DNA of 64,000 bases, from NCBI GenBank assembly GCA_947477565.1, contig CANJUR010000001.1:91996-155995 (forward strand), read 5' to 3'. Below, piece by piece: positions 7,449 to 15,496 of the stretch. The number at the start of each line of letters is the position of its first letter. Positions within the stretch are counted from its first letter, which is position 1. Source of the stretch: Deltaproteobacteria bacterium (GTDB lineage: Bacteria; Myxococcota_A; Polyangia; Polyangiales; Ga0077539). The position numbers and the translations under genes were made by a program. Under the pieces are notes generated by a model. The model did not search any database. It was not told the DNA's origin and saw nothing but the letters and a program-made list of their open reading frames with translations.

Positions 7449-9755
7449 TCACTCGAAGCTCCCGTCGACGCGAAGACTCACCGCGACCTGTCCCGCGCGA
7501 TCCGTGCGCAGCAAAGGAATCCTTCGACGGGCGAAGCGCTCGACCACCACCGGGTGCGGGTGATTGAACGGCGACGGGTGCCCGCTCGACACCAGCGCCA
7601 CGCGCGGACGCAGCGCGTCGAGGAAGGCCTCCGTGGAAGAAGTCCGGCTCCCGTGGTGGCCCACCTTCAGCACCGTCACCGGTGACAACCGCGCGAGCAG
7701 ACCGCGCTCGCCCGCGGCCTCCAGATCGCCCGGCAGCAACACGCTCGCCCGGCCGAAGTCGAACCGCAGCACCAGCGATGCGTCGTTGGGCGGCACGGTG
7801 GGGTTCATCGTCGGGCACGGCGCCAATACCGTGACCGTCACCGCCCCCATCGCTCGCGCGCCGCACAACTCTGCCGCCGTGCGGTGGATCACCCCGCGCC
7901 CCGCCGCCGCCGTCGCCGCTGCGCGATAGAAGCCCCCCATCCCGAGCGCCTCGCCCTGCCCGGTCTCCCAGAATTCCTTCACTGCGACCCCCTCGAAGAC
8001 CGCACGCAGCCCGCCGCCGTGGTCGGGATGCGGGTGCGTGAGGGCCACCACCGCGAGCTCCGTCCGCCGCGTCGCACGCAGCCACGGAACCACCACCGAC
8101 GCCCCCGGATCGGCCTCGCCGTGCAGCGCCCCGCCTGCGTCCACCAGTATCGTGCGCCCGTCCGGCAGATCGACCACGATCGCGTCCCCCTGACCCACGT
8201 CGAGCGCCGTCACCCGCAGCGCGCCGTGCGCCCCGTGCGTGTGTCGCAGCAGGAGTTCGAGCGCCGCGATCGCCACCGCCGCCGCCGTCCCCAGCGCCGC
8301 CCGCGCGCGCCATGACACGACCCACCCCACCACCAGCGCCGCCGTCGCGATCGCCGCCTGCCCCGGCGTCGGCGTAGGCCACACCGCGGACGCCCACGGC
8401 ACTCGCTGCGCCCACGGCGCCAGCGCGAAGAGCATTCGCAGCGCGTGCCCGGTCACCCACGCGAGCGGCACCGCCAGCGTCGGAGACAGCATCGCCAGCG
8501 CCGCCGTCGCCAGCGCGAGCGGGAGCGCGATCAGCTCGGCCAGCGGCGCCGCCACGAGGTTGACCAGCGTCGCCAGCGCGGGCGCCCGCCCGAACCGCAG
8601 CGCCAGCAGCGGCATCACTGCGAGGCCCACGCGCACCGTAGCGCGCAGCGCCTCGAGGGCCCACGCCCACAGCCGCTTACCCCACTGTGTAATCTTCACT
8701 GCGGCAACGCGGTCTGTCGGGGCGACGAGCGCGGCGGTAGCCACGGCGGAGAGCTGCAGCCCCAGATCGTGGGTCATGGCGGGCTCTCGCAGCGCCATCA
8801 CGAGCACCGTCAGCGCGAGCACGTCTAGCGCGCGCGGGTGCCGACCGCAGAGCGAGAGCAGCGCCACTGCGGCGCCAGAGAGCAGCGCGCGCACCGAGGC
8901 GGGCGACTCGCCGGTCATCAGCACGAAGAACCCTGCCAGCGGTATCGGAACCACCCTCGCCCAGCGCCACCCGAGCCCCCGCGCTGCCATCCAGCGCACC
9001 CGGTTGCACAGCCAGCAGACCACCGCGCCGAGGCCCCGCAGCACCACCGCGACGTGCGCGCCGCTCACCGCCAGAAGGTGGGCCAGGCCGGTCTCGCGAA
9101 ACGCCTCCACGGTCGCGTCGTCGAGGCCCCGCTCGTCGCCGAAGAGCAGTGCTCCGGCCTGCGCTGCGCCCGCCGGCGAGAGCGAGCGACGCAGCGCCGC
9201 ATCCACGGCCCGACGCGCCACGCGGGCCCCGCGGCGCAGTAGGTCCATCGCACCCGCGTCGCGGCCCGTCACGACGCACTGCGCGGTCTCCAGCCGCCAC
9301 GCGACGCCGCGGCGCAGCGACTGCATCGCCGGGTCTTCGAGAGGTGGATTGCGCCATGGCACCACCGGTCGCGCACTCACGATCGCCCTCACCAGATCGC
9401 CCGGCGCGGCCTCGCAACGGCCGATCGGAGCGCGGAGCGAGACCGTCCCCAGCGCATCGGAGGCGATCACGCAGCGCAGGAAATCCCCATACACATCGCA
9501 CCCCCGCACTACGCGCCCGTCGAAGGGCAGCGCACCCGGTCGAGGCAATGCCGTCCACCATGGCTCCGTCGGACCACGCAGCACCCCGGCCCCGAGCGCC
9601 GCCGCCACCACCGCGAGGGCCACCGCGCGACGACGGCCCAGGAGACACAGCCCCGCGAGCGCACCCCCCAGCACCGCGAGAGCCACGATCGGACTCGCTC
9701 GCAGACCGGTTCCGAGCGCCCACGCCACCACCACTGCCGCCACGATCCATCGCAT
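7449..9755 (-). CDS. comEC: ComEC/Rec2-family DNA uptake channel
   Basis: From ATG 9755 the product is 768 residues. An in-frame ATG 11 codons upstream is possible but precedes the hydrophobic N-terminus. The order is: membrane segments, an OB-like DUF4131 region with FDGRVVRG, the competence domain with the GLAHLLAVSGAHVAVV hallmark and about eight further helices, then a C-terminal metallo-beta-lactamase-like domain with THPHPDH, GHHGSRTS and SSGHPSPFNHP. ComEC carries single-stranded DNA across the inner membrane during natural transformation, and the C-terminal domain may degrade the other strand. The length matches full ComEC proteins. No other competence gene is present in the window. 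Confidence 0.93.
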   Translation of the reverse strand: MRWIVAAVVVAWALGTGLRASPIVALAVLGGALAGLCLLGRRRAVALAVVAAALGAGVLRGPTEPWWTALPRPGALPFDGRVVRGCDVYGDFLRCVIASDALGTVSLRAPIGRCEAAPGDLVRAIVSARPVVPWRNPPLEDPAMQSLRRGVAWRLETAQCVVTGRDAGAMDLLRRGARVARRAVDAALRRSLSPAGAAQAGALLFGDERGLDDATVEAFRETGLAHLLAVSGAHVAVVLRGLGAVVCWLCNRVRWMAARGLGWRWARVVPIPLAGFFVLMTGESPASVRALLSGAAVALLSLCGRHPRALDVLALTVLVMALREPAMTHDLGLQLSAVATAALVAPTDRVAAVKITQWGKRLWAWALEALRATVRVGLAVMPLLALRFGRAPALATLVNLVAAPLAELIALPLALATAALAMLSPTLAVPLAWVTGHALRMLFALAPWAQRVPWASAVWPTPTPGQAAIATAALVVGWVVSWRARAALGTAAAVAIAALELLLRHTHGAHGALRVTALDVGQGDAIVVDLPDGRTILVDAGGALHGEADPGASVVVPWLRATRRTELAVVALTHPHPDHGGGLRAVFEGVAVKEFWETGQGEALGMGGFYRAAATAAAGRGVIHRTAAELCGARAMGAVTVTVLAPCPTMNPTVPPNDASLVLRFDFGRASVLLPGDLEAAGERGLLARLSPVTVLKVGHHGSRTSSTEAFLDALRPRVALVSSGHPSPFNHPHPVVVERFARRRIPLLRTDRAGQVAVSLRVDGSFE

Positions 9756-9874
9756 GGACGTCCGAAGATTCCACGACCCGTGCCACACCCCAGACCACTA
9801 TGAATAAGGCATTTTCGTGCACCCACCTGGCCGCCGCCATGGCGGCGATGGGGTGGCGGCGGTGGAAACACTGC

Positions 9875-9938
9875 TTGACCCGCGAGACTCTTACCCCTAC
9901 GTAAGGGTTCGATCTCACTCCAACCCTTACGCATGGGT
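9875..9938 (+). promoter_or_regulatory. Promoter region of the isc operon with two tandem 16-bp dyads
   Basis: TTGACC at 9875-9880 is followed, after 17 bases, by TACGTA at 9898-9903, a plausible but weak -35/-10 pair. Two near-palindromes of the same design lie here: ACCCCTACGTAAGGGT at 9893-9908 and ACCCTTACGCATGGGT at 9923-9938. Their centres are exactly 30 bp apart. The inner arms, CGTAAGGGTT at 9900-9909 and AACCCTTACG at 9922-9931, also form a perfect 10-bp inverted repeat. The first dyad covers the proposed -10. Short GC-flanked dyads overlapping a core promoter are what MerR-family proteins bind, and a MerR gene starts 20 bases downstream, so autoregulation of the whole operon is likely (inference). 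Confidence 0.65.
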
Positions 9939-9957
9939 GAGGTTGTTTCGAGGCAGC

Positions 9958-10497
9958 ATGGCGATCCGGCTCCCCATCGTGAATCCTGAAGTCCTGGTTC
10001 CGCCTCCTCCTTTGCGGGGTGACGGCACGATGCTTCTGCGGGTCGGCGATCTGGCCCAGCGGACGCAGAAGACCGTTCGGGCGCTTCATCTCTATGAAGA
10101 ACTCGGGCTGCTCCAGCCGGTTGAGCGCAGCAAAGGTGGATTCCGTCTCTACAGCGATGATGCCGTACTGCGAGTGCGCTGGATCTCCCGGCTGCAAGAC
10201 CTCAGTTTCTCGCTTCCTGATATTCGAGAACTTGTGAGCGAGTGGGAGCGGTCGGGCAGCGCGACCGGCGCGATGGCGAAGATTCGCGAACTGTATCGAC
10301 AGAAGCTTTCGGATACCGAAGTTCAGTTAGAGCACTTGAAGCAGTTGCACGAGGAGTTGCGCTCGTCGGTGGCCTACCTCGAGACCTGCGACGAGTGTCA
10401 GCCCGAGCGCCTGATCACCTCCTGTCCGCAGTGCGATCTGCACGGCTGCGGAGCCCCGGATCTAGTAGCGGGCCTGCACGGCCCCCGACACGATTGA
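9958..10497 (+). CDS. MerR-family regulator with C-terminal cysteine cluster, heading the isc operon
   Basis: The protein is 179 residues. A MerR winged HTH starts near residue 25 (LRVGDLAQRTQKTVRALHLY), preceded by a proline-rich extension. A dimerisation coiled coil spans about 100-140. The C-terminus holds five cysteines (C144, C147, C156, C159, C164) spaced C-x2-C-x8-C-x2-C-x4-C, suited to binding an Fe-S cluster or metal. The start could instead be ATG 10030, which begins directly at the MerR domain and has a GGGGTGA before it. It is followed after 21 bases by iscS. By position it replaces the Rrf2-type IscR of proteobacteria, so it probably senses Fe-S or iron status and regulates the operon (inference). 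Confidence 0.85.
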   Translation: MAIRLPIVNPEVLVPPPPLRGDGTMLLRVGDLAQRTQKTVRALHLYEELGLLQPVERSKGGFRLYSDDAVLRVRWISRLQDLSFSLPDIRELVSEWERSGSATGAMAKIRELYRQKLSDTEVQLEHLKQLHEELRSSVAYLETCDECQPERLITSCPQCDLHGCGAPDLVAGLHGPRHD

Positions 10498-10518: not shown

Positions 10519-11748
10519 ATGTCCCTCAAGTTCCCGATTTACATGGACAATCACTCGACGAGCCCGATGGATCCGCGCGTGCTCGAGACCATGCTCCCGT
10601 ACTTCACGGAGCACTTCGGCAACGCGGCCTCGCGCTCGCACAAGTTTGGGTGGACCGCCGAGGAGGCCGTCAACTACGCCCGCGAGCAAGTGGCTACGCT
10701 GATCGGCGCCGATCGCCCGGAGGAGATCGTGTTCACTTCCGGGGCGAGCGAGAGCAACAACCTGGCGCTGAAGGGCGTGGCGGAATTCTATCGCGATAAG
10801 GGCAACCACATCATCACGACGAAGATTGAGCACAAGGCCGTGCTCGACACCTGTAAACGGCTGGAAAAGCAGGGCTTCGAGGTGACCTACCTCGATGTCG
10901 GCGTCGAAGGAATCGTCTCCCTGGACGACGTGCGCGCAGCCATGACTGACAAGACCATCCTGGTGTCGGTGATGCTGGCCAACAACGAAGTGGGCACTAT
11001 CCAGCCCATCGGCGCAATCGGGGCGCTCTGCAAGGAGCGCGGGGTGATCTTCCACACCGACGCGGTACAGGGCGTTGGCAAGACTGAGTTCAACGTGAAT
11101 GCCATGGGCGTCGATCTCGCGTCCATCACCGCGCACAAGATGTACGGCCCGAAGGGCGTCGGCGCCCTGTACGTTCGTCGGGCCCGTCCGCGGGTGCGGC
11201 TCACCGCGCAGATCGATGGCGGAGGACACGAGCGCGGCAACCGCTCTGGAACGCTCAACGTCCCGGGCATCGTGGGCTTCGGCAAGGCCTGCGAGATTCT
11301 CACGAAGGAGTGGCGGGACGAGGCCAGGTACGTCGCTTCGCAGCGCGATCGATTGAAGGAAAAGCTGTTTGCCGAGCTCGACGAGTGCCACATCAATGGC
11401 GCCTGGGGCGAAGGCCGACGACTGCCCAACAATCTCAACGTGTCGTTTTCCTACGTCGAGGGCGAAGGGCTGATGATGGCCATCAAGGACGTCGCGGTGT
11501 CTTCGGGTAGCGCCTGCACAAGTTCGTCGCTCGAGCCGTCGTATGTGCTGCGCGCGCTCGGCGTCGAGGAAGAGCTTGCGCACACGAGCATCCGCTTCGG
11601 TCTTGGTCGGTTTACCACCGAGGAGGAGGTCGATTTCGTCGCGCGGCTCGTGATCGACAAGGTCAAGAAGCTCCGCGATCTGTCGCCGCTCTACGAGATG
11701 GCCAAAGAGGGCGTAAACCTCAAGGATATCGTCTGGGCAGCGCACTGA
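10519..11748 (+). CDS. iscS: Cysteine desulfurase IscS
   Basis: IscS removes sulfur from L-cysteine with PLP and passes it as persulfide to IscU. The 409 residues match group I NifS/IscS length. Visible features are the N-terminal [12 protein letters not shown], the PLP lysine K207 in [11 protein letters not shown], the mobile-loop cysteine C333 in [14 protein letters not shown], and the C-terminal [20 protein letters not shown] tail, which is the IscU-docking end in characterised enzymes. A GGAGAG ribosome site precedes ATG 10519. It lies 21 bases after the MerR gene and 43 bases before iscU. Confidence 0.97.
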
Positions 11749-11791
11749 CGCTCAATAGATTTTCAATCGACAACGAATAAGGATTACGAAC

Positions 11792-12187
11792 ATGGCATAC
11801 AGCGAAAAAGTCATCGAGCACGCGGAAAACCCGCGCAATGTCGGCACCCTGGACAAGGAAGACCCCAACGTGGGCACCGGGCTCGTGGGCGCGCCGGCGT
11901 GCGGCGACGTGATGCGACTGCAGATCAAGGTGAGCGACGCCGGGGTGATCGAGGACGCGAAGTTCAAGACCTTCGGCTGCGGATCGGCGATTGCCAGCTC
12001 GTCGCTCGCGACGGAGTGGCTGAAGGGTCGCACGCTCGAAGAAGCCGCGACGATTCGCAACACCGACATCGTGAAGGAACTCAACCTTCCGCCGGTCAAG
12101 ATCCATTGTTCGGTATTGGCCGAAGATGCGATCAAAAGCGCGATCGAGGACTTCCGCAAGAAGCAGTCGGCGAAGCGCAGCTCGTAG
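11792..12187 (+). CDS. iscU: Fe-S cluster scaffold IscU
   Basis: The 131-residue scaffold assembles [2Fe-2S]/[4Fe-4S] clusters with sulfur from IscS. All ligands are present: C37 and D39 in GAPACGDV, C63 in FGCGSA, and H105-C106 in KIHCSV. The HscA-recognition motif LPPVK is at 99-103, just before the third cysteine. This is the IscU type rather than SufU, matching the accompanying hscB and hscA. Confidence 0.97.
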   Translation: MAYSEKVIEHAENPRNVGTLDKEDPNVGTGLVGAPACGDVMRLQIKVSDAGVIEDAKFKTFGCGSAIASSSLATEWLKGRTLEEAATIRNTDIVKELNLPPVKIHCSVLAEDAIKSAIEDFRKKQSAKRSS

Positions 12188-12217
12188 GCTCGACGAGAGA
12201 GGCTGAGGAGGCGAGAG

Positions 12218-12556
12218 ATGGCGACGGAGCTGGCGGTGCAGGTGACCCCGAAGGCAGTAGAGAAGGCCAAGGAGGCGCTCGTGAAGAGGGGCACCCCCGA
12301 GGGGTTGCTGCGGCTGGGGGTGCGCGGCGGCGGATGTTCGGGCTTCTCCTACGTGATTGAGTTTGCCGACAAGCAGGGCACCCGTGACCAGGTGTTCAAC
12401 TTCGATGGACTGCGCGTGGTGGTCGATCCGAAGTCACTGGTGTTTCTTAACGGAACGACACTCGATTACGAGGTGAAGCTCATGCAACACGGATTCAAGT
12501 TCGTGAATCCGCAAGAGGCCGCCGGCTGCGGCTGCGGCGAGAGCTTCGGGGTCTGA
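12218..12556 (+). CDS. iscA: A-type Fe-S carrier IscA
   Basis: The 112-residue A-type carrier accepts clusters from IscU or delivers them to apoproteins. The three ligands are C40 in RGGGCSGF and C104/C106 in AAGCGCGESF. The fold elements between them, such as VVVDPKSLVFLNGTTLDY, are typical. It starts 30 bases after iscU. A GAGGCGAGAG purine run precedes the start. Confidence 0.96.
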   Translation: MATELAVQVTPKAVEKAKEALVKRGTPEGLLRLGVRGGGCSGFSYVIEFADKQGTRDQVFNFDGLRVVVDPKSLVFLNGTTLDYEVKLMQHGFKFVNPQEAAGCGCGESFGV

Positions 12557-12617
12557 GCGCTCCTTCGTCATCCGCAACACCCCTCGTCGTGATTCTTTTC
12601 ACTCGCAATTGCTAACC

Positions 12618-13130
12618 ATGACTGATCCCTTCGACCTTCTTGGCGTAGCGCGGCGCTTCTCCCTCGACCGCGCCGCGCTCGAGCAACGGCACCGAGACCT
12701 CTCCCGCACACTCCACCCTGACCGCTACGTGCAGGCCCCTCCCGGCGAGCGCCGGATGGCCCTCGATCGCGCCGTTGCGGTCAACGAAGCCTTCCGCGCC
12801 CTTCGCGATCCGCTCACCCGCGCCGAGGCTCTGCTCACCGCGCACGGTCTCTCCGTGGGTGACGCCGACCGCCCCTCGCAAGCGCTCCTGCTCGAGGTGA
12901 TGGATCTCCGCGAAGCTCTCGACGAGGGCCGCCGAACGCCCGCCAAAGTCACCGCGCTGCTCGAGCAGGTGCGCGCCCGCACAAAGTCCGAAGAGAATCT
13001 CCTCGCGGCGGTGTTCGACGGGGAAACCCCTCCGGACGCCGCGGCGCTGGCCCGCGCTCGTGACGCCCTCGTACGGTTGAAATACTTCCGTCGCTTCGAG
13101 GATGAAGCCGACGACGCGCTCGACTCCTGA
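12618..13130 (+). CDS. hscB: J-type co-chaperone HscB
   Basis: From ATG 12618 the protein is 170 residues. An ATG three codons upstream at 12609 is possible, and neither has a clear ribosome site. The N-terminal J domain has HPD at 33-35 in the context HRDLSRTLHPDRY. The C-terminal three-helix domain (about 75-165) binds IscU in characterised HscB. HscB delivers IscU to HscA and stimulates its ATPase. Its place between iscA and hscA is the classical order. Confidence 0.93.
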   Translation: MTDPFDLLGVARRFSLDRAALEQRHRDLSRTLHPDRYVQAPPGERRMALDRAVAVNEAFRALRDPLTRAEALLTAHGLSVGDADRPSQALLLEVMDLREALDEGRRTPAKVTALLEQVRARTKSEENLLAAVFDGETPPDAAALARARDALVRLKYFRRFEDEADDALDS

Positions 13131-13160
13131 AGCCACTACTCACAGGTCCCCCCAAAACCG

Positions 13161-15101
13161 ATGGCGCTCTTCCAGATCTTCGACCCTACCGCGCGACCGA
13201 CCCCGATCGGCATCGACCTCGGCACGACCCACTCGCTGGTGGCCTACACTGTCGATGGCCGCCCGGAGTGCGTGCTCGATTGCGACCTCAACCCGCTGCT
13301 CCCCAGCGTGGTTCATTACCTCCAACACGGCGGGGTGATGGTCGGTACCGAAGGGAAGGGAAAAGCCGCCCTGCACCCGCGCGAGACCCTTGTCTCCGTG
13401 AAGCGCTTCATGGGCCGCGGCGCCGACGATCCGGAGACGCGCAGGCTTGGTCCGTATGATTTTGCGATGCCCGAACCGGGGCAGTCCAACACGGTGCGCT
13501 TCAAGGTCCACGGACGAACGGTGACGCCGGTGGAGGTGTCCGCGGAGATTCTCCGGGCGCTGCGCACCCAGGCAGAAGGAAAGCTGCGCACCCTCGGCGG
13601 CGCGGTAATCACCGTCCCGGCGTACTTTGATGAAGCGCAACGGCAGGCCACCAAAGATGCCGCGAAGCTCGCGGGCGTGGAGGTGCTGCGGCTCCTCAAC
13701 GAGCCCACCGCCGCGGCCCTCGCCTATGGCCTCGACAAGGGACGCACCCGCGGAACCTTCGCCGTCTACGACCTCGGCGGCGGAACCTTCGACGTCACCA
13801 TCCTCTCCCTCGACGACGGCGTCTTCCAGGTGCGCTCCACCGGCGGCGACGCGCAGCTTGGCGGCGACGACATGGACCGTCTGCTCGCCGAGTGGGTCTT
13901 CGGACACCTGGAGATCGACTCTGCGCAGGCCGCGCCCGGCCTCGTTCGCGCGGTTCTCGACGCGGCGCGAACGGCCAAGCACGACCTCACCGATCGACCC
14001 GACACGGTGATCGCCGTCGACGTCGACGGGGTGACCTTCGAGCGCTCCATCCGGCGGACGGAGTTCGAGGACATCGTGCGGACCGTCATCGCGCGCACCA
14101 CCCCTGCGGTGAAGCGCGCCCTGCGCGATGCGGGACTGCGGCCTGACGAGATCGACGGTGTCATCCTGGTGGGCGGGAGCACGCGCGTCCCGGCGGTGCG
14201 CGAGCACGTACAGAGCCTCTTCGGGCAGGAGCCGCTCTCGGACATCGACCCCGATCAGGTGGTGGCCTTCGGCGCGGCGATTCAGGCCAACCTGCTGGCG
14301 GGCGACGGCGCGAAAGACGACGCGCTCATCCTCGATGTGATTCCGCTCTCCCTCGGCCTGGAGACCATGGGCGGCGTGGCGGAGAAGATTCTCCCTCGCA
14401 ACACCACGATTCCCGCGGGGCGCGCACAGCAGTTCACGACCTACGCCGACGGGCAGACGGGCTTCGAGGTGCACGTGGTGCAAGGCGAGCGCGAACTGGC
14501 TGCGGACAACCGCTCCCTCGCGAAGTTTACCCTACGGGGTATTCCGCTGATGCCCGCCGGGGCGGCGAAGTTGGAAGTGACCTTCCGCGTCGATGCCGAC
14601 GGGATGCTCACGGTGACCGCGCGCGAACTCAACACGGGCATTGAGCAGCACATTGAGGTGACGCCGTCCTTCGGGCTGACCGGCGACGACGTCGAGCGGA
14701 TGCTCCTGGAGTCCTATGAGCACGCGGAGTCCGACCTCGCAGTGCGGCAGTTGCGGGAGCGCATCACCGACGCAGAGCGGGTGATCGCGGCGACGGAGGC
14801 GGCGCTGCGGGTGGATGGCGACCTGCTCGACGAGGACGAGCGCGCGGAGCTTGACGGTGCCCTCAAGGCGCTGCGCGAGGCAATCGCGGCGCAGGACGGG
14901 AAGAAGGTTCATCTGCGGACGGAGGGGCTCGACCGCGCGACGCACCCGCTGGCCGAGCGACGGATGGATCGCGCGGTTCAGCACGCGATGCGCGGCCGCG
15001 CCGTGCAGGAAATCGAGGACACGGTGCGCGACCGGCCGGAGCACCCGCACCTCGCGGCCTCGTATGCGAAGGACATGGAGTCCGAGAAGGAGACCCGGTG
15101 A
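13161..15101 (+). CDS. hscA: Hsp70-type chaperone HscA for Fe-S cluster transfer
   Basis: The 646-residue protein is an Hsp70. The nucleotide-binding domain shows GIDLGTTHS near 14-22, the VKRFMGRG segment, [19 protein letters not shown] and the phosphate loop [12 protein letters not shown]. The substrate domain (about 390-520) and a helical lid follow. The DnaK-type acidic C-terminal EEVD-like tail is absent, as usual for HscA. HscA uses ATP to drive release of the cluster from IscU via the LPPVK motif. The stop overlaps the ferredoxin start as TGATG, so these are coupled. Confidence 0.95.
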
Positions 15102-15496
15102 TGGCGACGGTGCGGTTTCTAAACACGGATGACGGCGCGGTGGAGGTAGAGGTCCCGCTCGGGACGACGCTGCTCGAGGCCGCGCAGATGGCCCACGCCC
15201 CGGAGGGATCAGCCTGCGGCGGGGTGTGCGGCTGCTCGACGTGCCACGTGCACGTGAAGAAGGGCCTCCCCCTGCTCTCGGAGATTGAAGACGAGGAAAA
15301 CGACATCCTCGACAAGGCCTTTGACGTCGAGGCGAGTTCGCGCCTCGGCTGTCAGGCGAAGGTCGAGCGCGAGGGCCTCGTCGAGCTCTTCATCACCCGG
15401 GAATCTTACGAGACCTGGTATAACGAGCACCCTCAGGAGCGCCACGCCCGAGACGAGCGCATCAAGCTGACCGGCTCGCCGCGCAGCCGCCCGTAG
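15101..15496 (+). CDS. fdx: [2Fe-2S] ferredoxin of the ISC system
   Basis: The 131-residue ISC-type (adrenodoxin-like) ferredoxin has ligands C39, C45, C48 (C-x5-C-x2-C) and C84 in RLGCQAK. An extra cysteine at 43 is non-ligand in relatives. ISC ferredoxin supplies electrons for cluster assembly on IscU. The ATG at 15101 shares a base with the hscA stop; an in-frame GTG one codon earlier is possible. The roughly 20-residue C-terminal extension after the ferredoxin fold (ETWYNEHPQERHARD onward) is longer than in E. coli Fdx. It is the last gene of the operon; no iscX is present. Confidence 0.94.
   Translation: MATVRFLNTDDGAVEVEVPLGTTLLEAAQMAHAPEGSACGGVCGCSTCHVHVKKGLPLLSEIEDEENDILDKAFDVEASSRLGCQAKVEREGLVELFITRESYETWYNEHPQERHARDERIKLTGSPRSRP

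Follow-up and report, generated by a model that had tools for sequence, protein, structure and literature searches.

A 24-bp palindrome upstream of a MerR-headed isc operon in Myxococcota, the candidate operator of a proposed feedback repressor

Introduction

Only few regulators of Fe-S cluster assembly are known, namely IscR, RirA and SufR. In E. coli, IscR is encoded by the first gene of the isc operon, represses this operon including its own gene, and acts as an Fe-S sensor with the help of cysteines. Here we analysed a 64-kb stretch of DNA (the window) from a 6.65-Mb draft genome that is 93% complete and whose nearest named relatives are Myxococcota MAGs. It carries an isc operon whose first gene encodes a regulator of the MerR family, devoid of an Rrf2 domain, in agreement with a first-pass annotation of this DNA that had proposed a type of control unlike that by Rrf2/IscR.

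Results

The isc locus

Profile searches bore out the proposed arrangement, a complete isc operon (iscS-iscU-iscA-hscB-hscA-fdx, 10519-15496) with the MerR gene in first position. A comEC-like gene (7449-9788) lies divergently upstream of the operator region. The genes of the operon are:

9958-10497, plus strand: regulator of the MerR family with 179 aa, at the head of the operon (PF13411 50.5 bits, PF09278 38.4 bits, both over cut-off)
10519-11748, plus strand: iscS, cysteine desulfurase (NF010611 651.5 bits, over cut-off)
11792-12187, plus strand: iscU, scaffold (TIGR01999 223.5 bits, over cut-off)
12218-12556, plus strand: iscA, A-type carrier (TIGR00049 over cut-off; best equivalog TIGR02011 under cut-off)
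12609-13130, plus strand: hscB, co-chaperone (TIGR00714 68.3 bits, over cut-off)
13161-15101, plus strand: hscA, chaperone (TIGR01991 800.7 bits, over cut-off)
15098-15496, plus strand: fdx, 2Fe-2S ferredoxin (PF00111 over cut-off; TIGR02007, the best ISC-type match, under cut-off)

A conserved 24-bp palindrome

Two 16-bp dyads of common design had been described upstream of the MerR gene, and dyad 1 (ACCCCTACGTAAGGGT, 9893-9908) and dyad 2 (ACCCTTACGCATGGGT, 9923-9938) were recovered with exactly these sequences and positions. Their shared pattern ACCCNTRCGYANGGGT matches nothing else in the 64 kb even if two mismatches are allowed, and the 6.65-Mb genome contains no further exact match. The 10-bp inverted repeat reported between them, consisting of CGTAAGGGTT (9900-9909) and AACCCTTACG (9922-9931), is real as well. 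A one-mismatch 16-mer at C1:70084 is located inside a long coding frame and was taken as chance.

The conservation of the dyads in related genomes, a check suggested in the first-pass annotation, was then assessed in the upstream regions of 110 MerR orthologues, all from the window's own order. Motif discovery by an EM search was seeded with the commonest 7-mers over all 110 regions, none of them taken from the window, and arrived at ACCCT-ACGC-TACGTAAGGGTT, present in about 99% of the regions. The symmetrised matrix describes a 24-bp palindrome, AACCCTyACGCrTACGTrAGGGTT (30.7 bits), and scored above the maximum reached in 2200 simulated sequences (11.9 bits) in 109 of the 110 regions. The strict 16-bp pattern without mismatch, tried as an alternative frame, is found in just 13 of them. 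Outside the order, 36 of 40 further loci from other orders of the class and other classes of the phylum have the operator at more than 8 bits, and iscS comes shortly after the MerR gene in most cases. The conserved unit is therefore the 24-mer, with the 16-mer as a sub-frame of it, and the two dyads each represent the same 24-bp control site:

9875-9880, plus strand: -35 element TTGACC of the isc promoter, kept in five of five same-genus genomes
9886-9909, plus strand: operator 1, GACTCTTACCCCTACGTAAGGGTT (24 bp), 28.4 bits, one mismatch to the consensus pattern; contains the dyad at 9893-9908 and covers the -10 element
9898-9903, plus strand: probable -10 element TACGTA inside operator 1, 17 bp after the -35 element, a spacing as in relatives
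9922-9945, plus strand: operator 2, AACCCTTACGCATGGGTGAGGTTG (24 bp), 29.8 bits, kept in five of five same-genus genomes; contains the dyad at 9923-9938 and lies at about +12 to +36

In the five same-genus genomes, GACyCTT is kept ahead of dyad 1 and rAGGkT behind dyad 2, and the spacer past dyad 1 is scrambled, so that what is conserved around the 16-mers is what the 24-mer predicts. Because of this fit the operator centres have to be placed 36 bp apart; the distance of 30 bp given earlier follows from dyad positions that are themselves correct, and does not hold for the operators. The 16-bp sub-palindromes arise when operator position 10 (or its mirror position 15) carries the minority base, so that pairing takes place between an inner ACCC and the outer GGGT. 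A fixed arrangement of paired dyads three helical turns apart was not borne out either. A single operator is present in 70 of the 110 relatives, and where there are two, the distances are 25, 29, 30, 36 and 48-79 bp, the second site often being located upstream of the -35 element. Three-turn spacing is thus no conserved feature.

Promoter geometry

The earlier suggestion that dyad 1 overlaps a plausible -10 element is supported by the position of TACGTA 17 bp after TTGACC. A generic sigma-70 scan of the window called no promoter and TACGTA is weak, for which reason this -10 assignment is given as probable. The isc transcript is predicted to start near 9910. In 94 of 108 upstream regions of the order, an operator start is preceded by TTGAC at a distance of 26-47 bp, where the background is 0.011 per stretch of that length; TTGAC occurrences of this kind that fit TTGAC-N16-18-TA number 91 in relatives. 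In most relatives the distance from TTGAC to the operator start is 33-47 bp, which places the operator about at the presumed start of the transcript. As far as it can be read from the predicted elements, this geometry is of the repressor type and not that of classical MerR activation.

The MerR protein and its cysteine tail

PF13411, PF00376 and PF09278 all score over cut-off, identifying a MerR winged-helix DNA-binding domain. The start of the gene is fixed by 91% identity between same-genus orthologues across residues 1-179. In many orthologues the HTH is preceded by an N-terminal extension (9958-10035 in the window) with an RLP[ILV]-like motif, found in 71 of 110 with a loose pattern. An AlphaFold2 model (mean pLDDT 86.6) has a confident MerR fold with a predicted long dimerisation helix (residues 102-142); in Foldseek, CadR is the best fold match of the model, and SoxR and CueR are among the nearest solved folds. 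None of the curated NCBIfam equivalogs is matched over its cut-off. The CueR, ZntR, CadR/PbrR and MerR models give 55-62 bits against cut-offs of 143-168, and the SoxR model TIGR01950 gives 43.7 bits against 116.9, the CX2CXCX5C motif of SoxR being absent. The protein matches MerR models only, and is thus no IscR (Rrf2) protein.

Its C-terminal tail carries a further element:

10387-10443, plus strand: motif C144-X2-C147-X8-C156-X2-C159-X2-H162, candidate site for an Fe-S cluster or metal

All 110 orthologues have the four cysteines (C144, C147, C156, C159) in the form CX2-3C-X8-CX2C, and 105 have H162. Since the model is of low confidence in the tail (pLDDT about 57-66 over residues 141-160, too uncertain for the placement of a metal site), ligation of a cluster is a guess from the cysteine pattern and the gene context. 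This pattern suggests that the tail probably senses Fe-S clusters or metal; a metal-free redox switch or a zinc site would fit it as well as an Fe-S cluster.

Distribution of the operator

Synteny is strict within the order, iscS following directly after the MerR gene in 110 of 110 relatives. When 16 whole genomes were searched with up to two mismatches, the isc locus was matched in each, and a reversed-pattern control gave no match in the same genomes. Two extra sites were obtained in total, one in front of the gene for an A-type carrier in G007 and the other in G000 (C9:69682, two mismatches). The latter, the sole other 24-mer match of G000, lies inside a coding frame and was taken as chance, and a wider regulon in that genome was discarded. 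With up to one mismatch, nearly all sites among the matches listed for 184 genomes of the order are isc sites; the site in G095, for example, belongs to that genome's own merR-iscS locus. Among these matches, genus g3 (G005, G006, G007) has an orthologous operator before the A-type carrier gene (88-99% identical), and this Fe-S gene is therefore apparently regulated in trans.

In G080 (L281, 1170-1193) a one-mismatch operator is found about 200 bp before a gene for a 63-aa ferredoxin, either a further member of the regulon or a chance match. Second MerR copies in family f39 (L272, L276, L277) have a similar 24-bp site upstream and are not followed by iscS; the gene next to the paralogue encodes an ECF-like sigma factor in L272 and L276. 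From this gene context these paralogues seem to have been recruited to another target, and the MerR family is therefore not strictly bound to isc.

MerR with ISC or Rrf2 with SUF

Furthermore, two presence tables were compared for the 184 genomes of the order, as raw genome counts uncorrected for relatedness: 129 genomes have MerR only, 3 MerR and SufB/D, 41 SUF only and 11 neither. The presence of MerR and of SufB/D is thus nearly exclusive, SufB/D occurring in 3 of 132 genomes with MerR and in 41 of 52 without it. Two of the three genomes with both (G048, G103, G115) are 6-8% contaminated, and the SufB/D match of the third is weak. The SUF-only state is present in families f3, f6, f10, f11 and f12. 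Family f3 is without MerR, and its 34 MerR-less genomes are without an operator at up to one mismatch among the matches listed. In five f3 genomes examined, SufB/D is present in all and an Rrf2 gene lies within about 2 kb of iscS in four. A search for Rrf2 proteins gave no match in G000, G008 or G012. Rrf2 proteins do occur in the MerR genomes G003, G164, G146, G084 and G181, all away from the isc locus, and replacement of IscR is therefore claimed for isc and not for the whole genome. Two states thus appear to alternate in these genomes, MerR with ISC, or Rrf2 with SUF.

Discussion

Taken together, we consider it likely that the two dyads are parts of two operators of the adjacent MerR protein, and that this protein is a dedicated feedback repressor of isc which senses through its cysteine tail. 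The first-pass interpretation is partly supported, namely in the MerR-headed operon, the conservation of the dyads and a control unlike that by Rrf2/IscR, and not in the 16-bp unit and the three-turn design. The sequences themselves show the operator, the synteny with its partner gene and the promoter geometry, all with good support, as well as the invariant cysteines and the near-exclusivity with SUF. That MerR binds the operator, that the sign of control is repression, and that the tail binds Fe-S or metal, we infer from genomic linkage, co-occurrence, promoter geometry and cysteine pattern. In the proposed mechanism, a MerR dimer would bind the 24-bp palindrome at the -10 element (operator 1) and at the beginning of the transcribed sequence (operator 2), and would keep RNA polymerase off the promoter or stalled, making the protein a dedicated autoregulatory repressor of the operon. 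The CX2CX8CX2CX2H tail would be the sensor, with an Fe-S cluster (or iron or zinc) bound there leading to repression. If clusters run short, the tail would empty and isc, including merR itself, would be switched on. This feedback logic would resemble that of E. coli IscR, executed by an unrelated protein in genomes with ISC and without SufB/D.

The same protein might instead bind these sites and activate isc by DNA distortion, as at the classical MerR, CueR and SoxR promoters. It is a true member of the family with CadR, SoxR and CueR folds close by, and operator 1 of the window does overlap the spacer and the -10 element. The classical mode, however, needs -35 and -10 elements that are 19-20 bp apart with the dyad between them, 19 bp being given for the mer promoter (PMC11049809). 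In most relatives the spacer has 16-18 bp, and the operator is located beyond the -10 element, near the transcript start. We therefore regard activation as unlikely. Binding by some other regulator, with the MerR gene as a mere passenger of the isc operon, would be compatible with the correlations as long as that regulator co-occurs with MerR, given that MerR binding is itself deduced. Yet the sites are missing, among the matches listed, from the MerR-less family f3, no Rrf2 protein was matched in G000, G008 and G012, and paralogues in another family bear similar sites before their own genes, which makes a passenger role quite improbable.

Operator 2 might also act at the RNA level, as a hairpin or attenuator in the 5'-UTR of the isc transcript, and a weak terminator-like stem (9925-9942) is indeed located within the predicted leader. 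However, the half-sites pair as expected from independent columns, with a slight excess at the centre only and no hairpin-like covariation, no Rfam family reaches threshold, and in some relatives the second site is located upstream of the -35 element, starting 23-28 bp before TTGAC. We accordingly consider a role in RNA very unlikely.

On the favoured reading, repression by the MerR protein, this would be a regulator apparently not yet described, in the role that IscR has in E. coli. No paper on a MerR-controlled isc operon was found in the open-licence literature, which is weak evidence of absence. If true, this would add another regulator of Fe-S assembly, one with a sharply defined operator that is conserved through most of the phylum, and from a family known more for its activators. 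It would also be a clean case of a regulator and an assembly system being swapped together, MerR with ISC and Rrf2 with SUF. Whether a MerR subfamily whose cysteine motif is new serves as Fe-S-sensing feedback repressor of isc in much of the Myxococcota, independently of IscR, SufR and RirA, in step with the loss of SUF and perhaps in other phyla too, we judge to be an evenly balanced question.

Outside the phylum, the closest counterparts are found in Latescibacterota and one Gemmatimonas-labelled MAG (L013, L014, L016, L019), where a MerR protein with a CX2C-X9-CX2C tail followed by PD[MV]V is encoded directly before iscA and iscS. These proteins are about 30-35% identical, their gene set is shorter and their upstream sequence is different. 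The upstream regions of these four loci share TTGACA-N17-TATATT and a different palindrome, TATATTCACCACGAAATATA.

With CadR/PbrR, CueR and ZntR, the window's protein shares fold and length class, and these are its best profile matches, CadR being the best by fold; all equivalog scores are nevertheless less than half of the cut-offs, and the operon serves Fe-S assembly and not metal efflux. SoxR, a [2Fe-2S] protein of the MerR family, is similar in its fold and in having C-terminal cysteines near the dimer helix, but differs in its CX2CXCX5C motif, in an operator placed within a long spacer, and in its target, which is not isc. Like E. coli IscR (PMC12594620), the protein is encoded by the first gene of the isc operon, is a proposed autorepressor of isc and contains the cysteines of a putative Fe-S sensor. 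Unlike IscR, which belongs to the Rrf2 family, it is an unrelated protein that carries four cysteines and a histidine in a C-terminal tail and would act through a single type of 24-bp palindromic operator.
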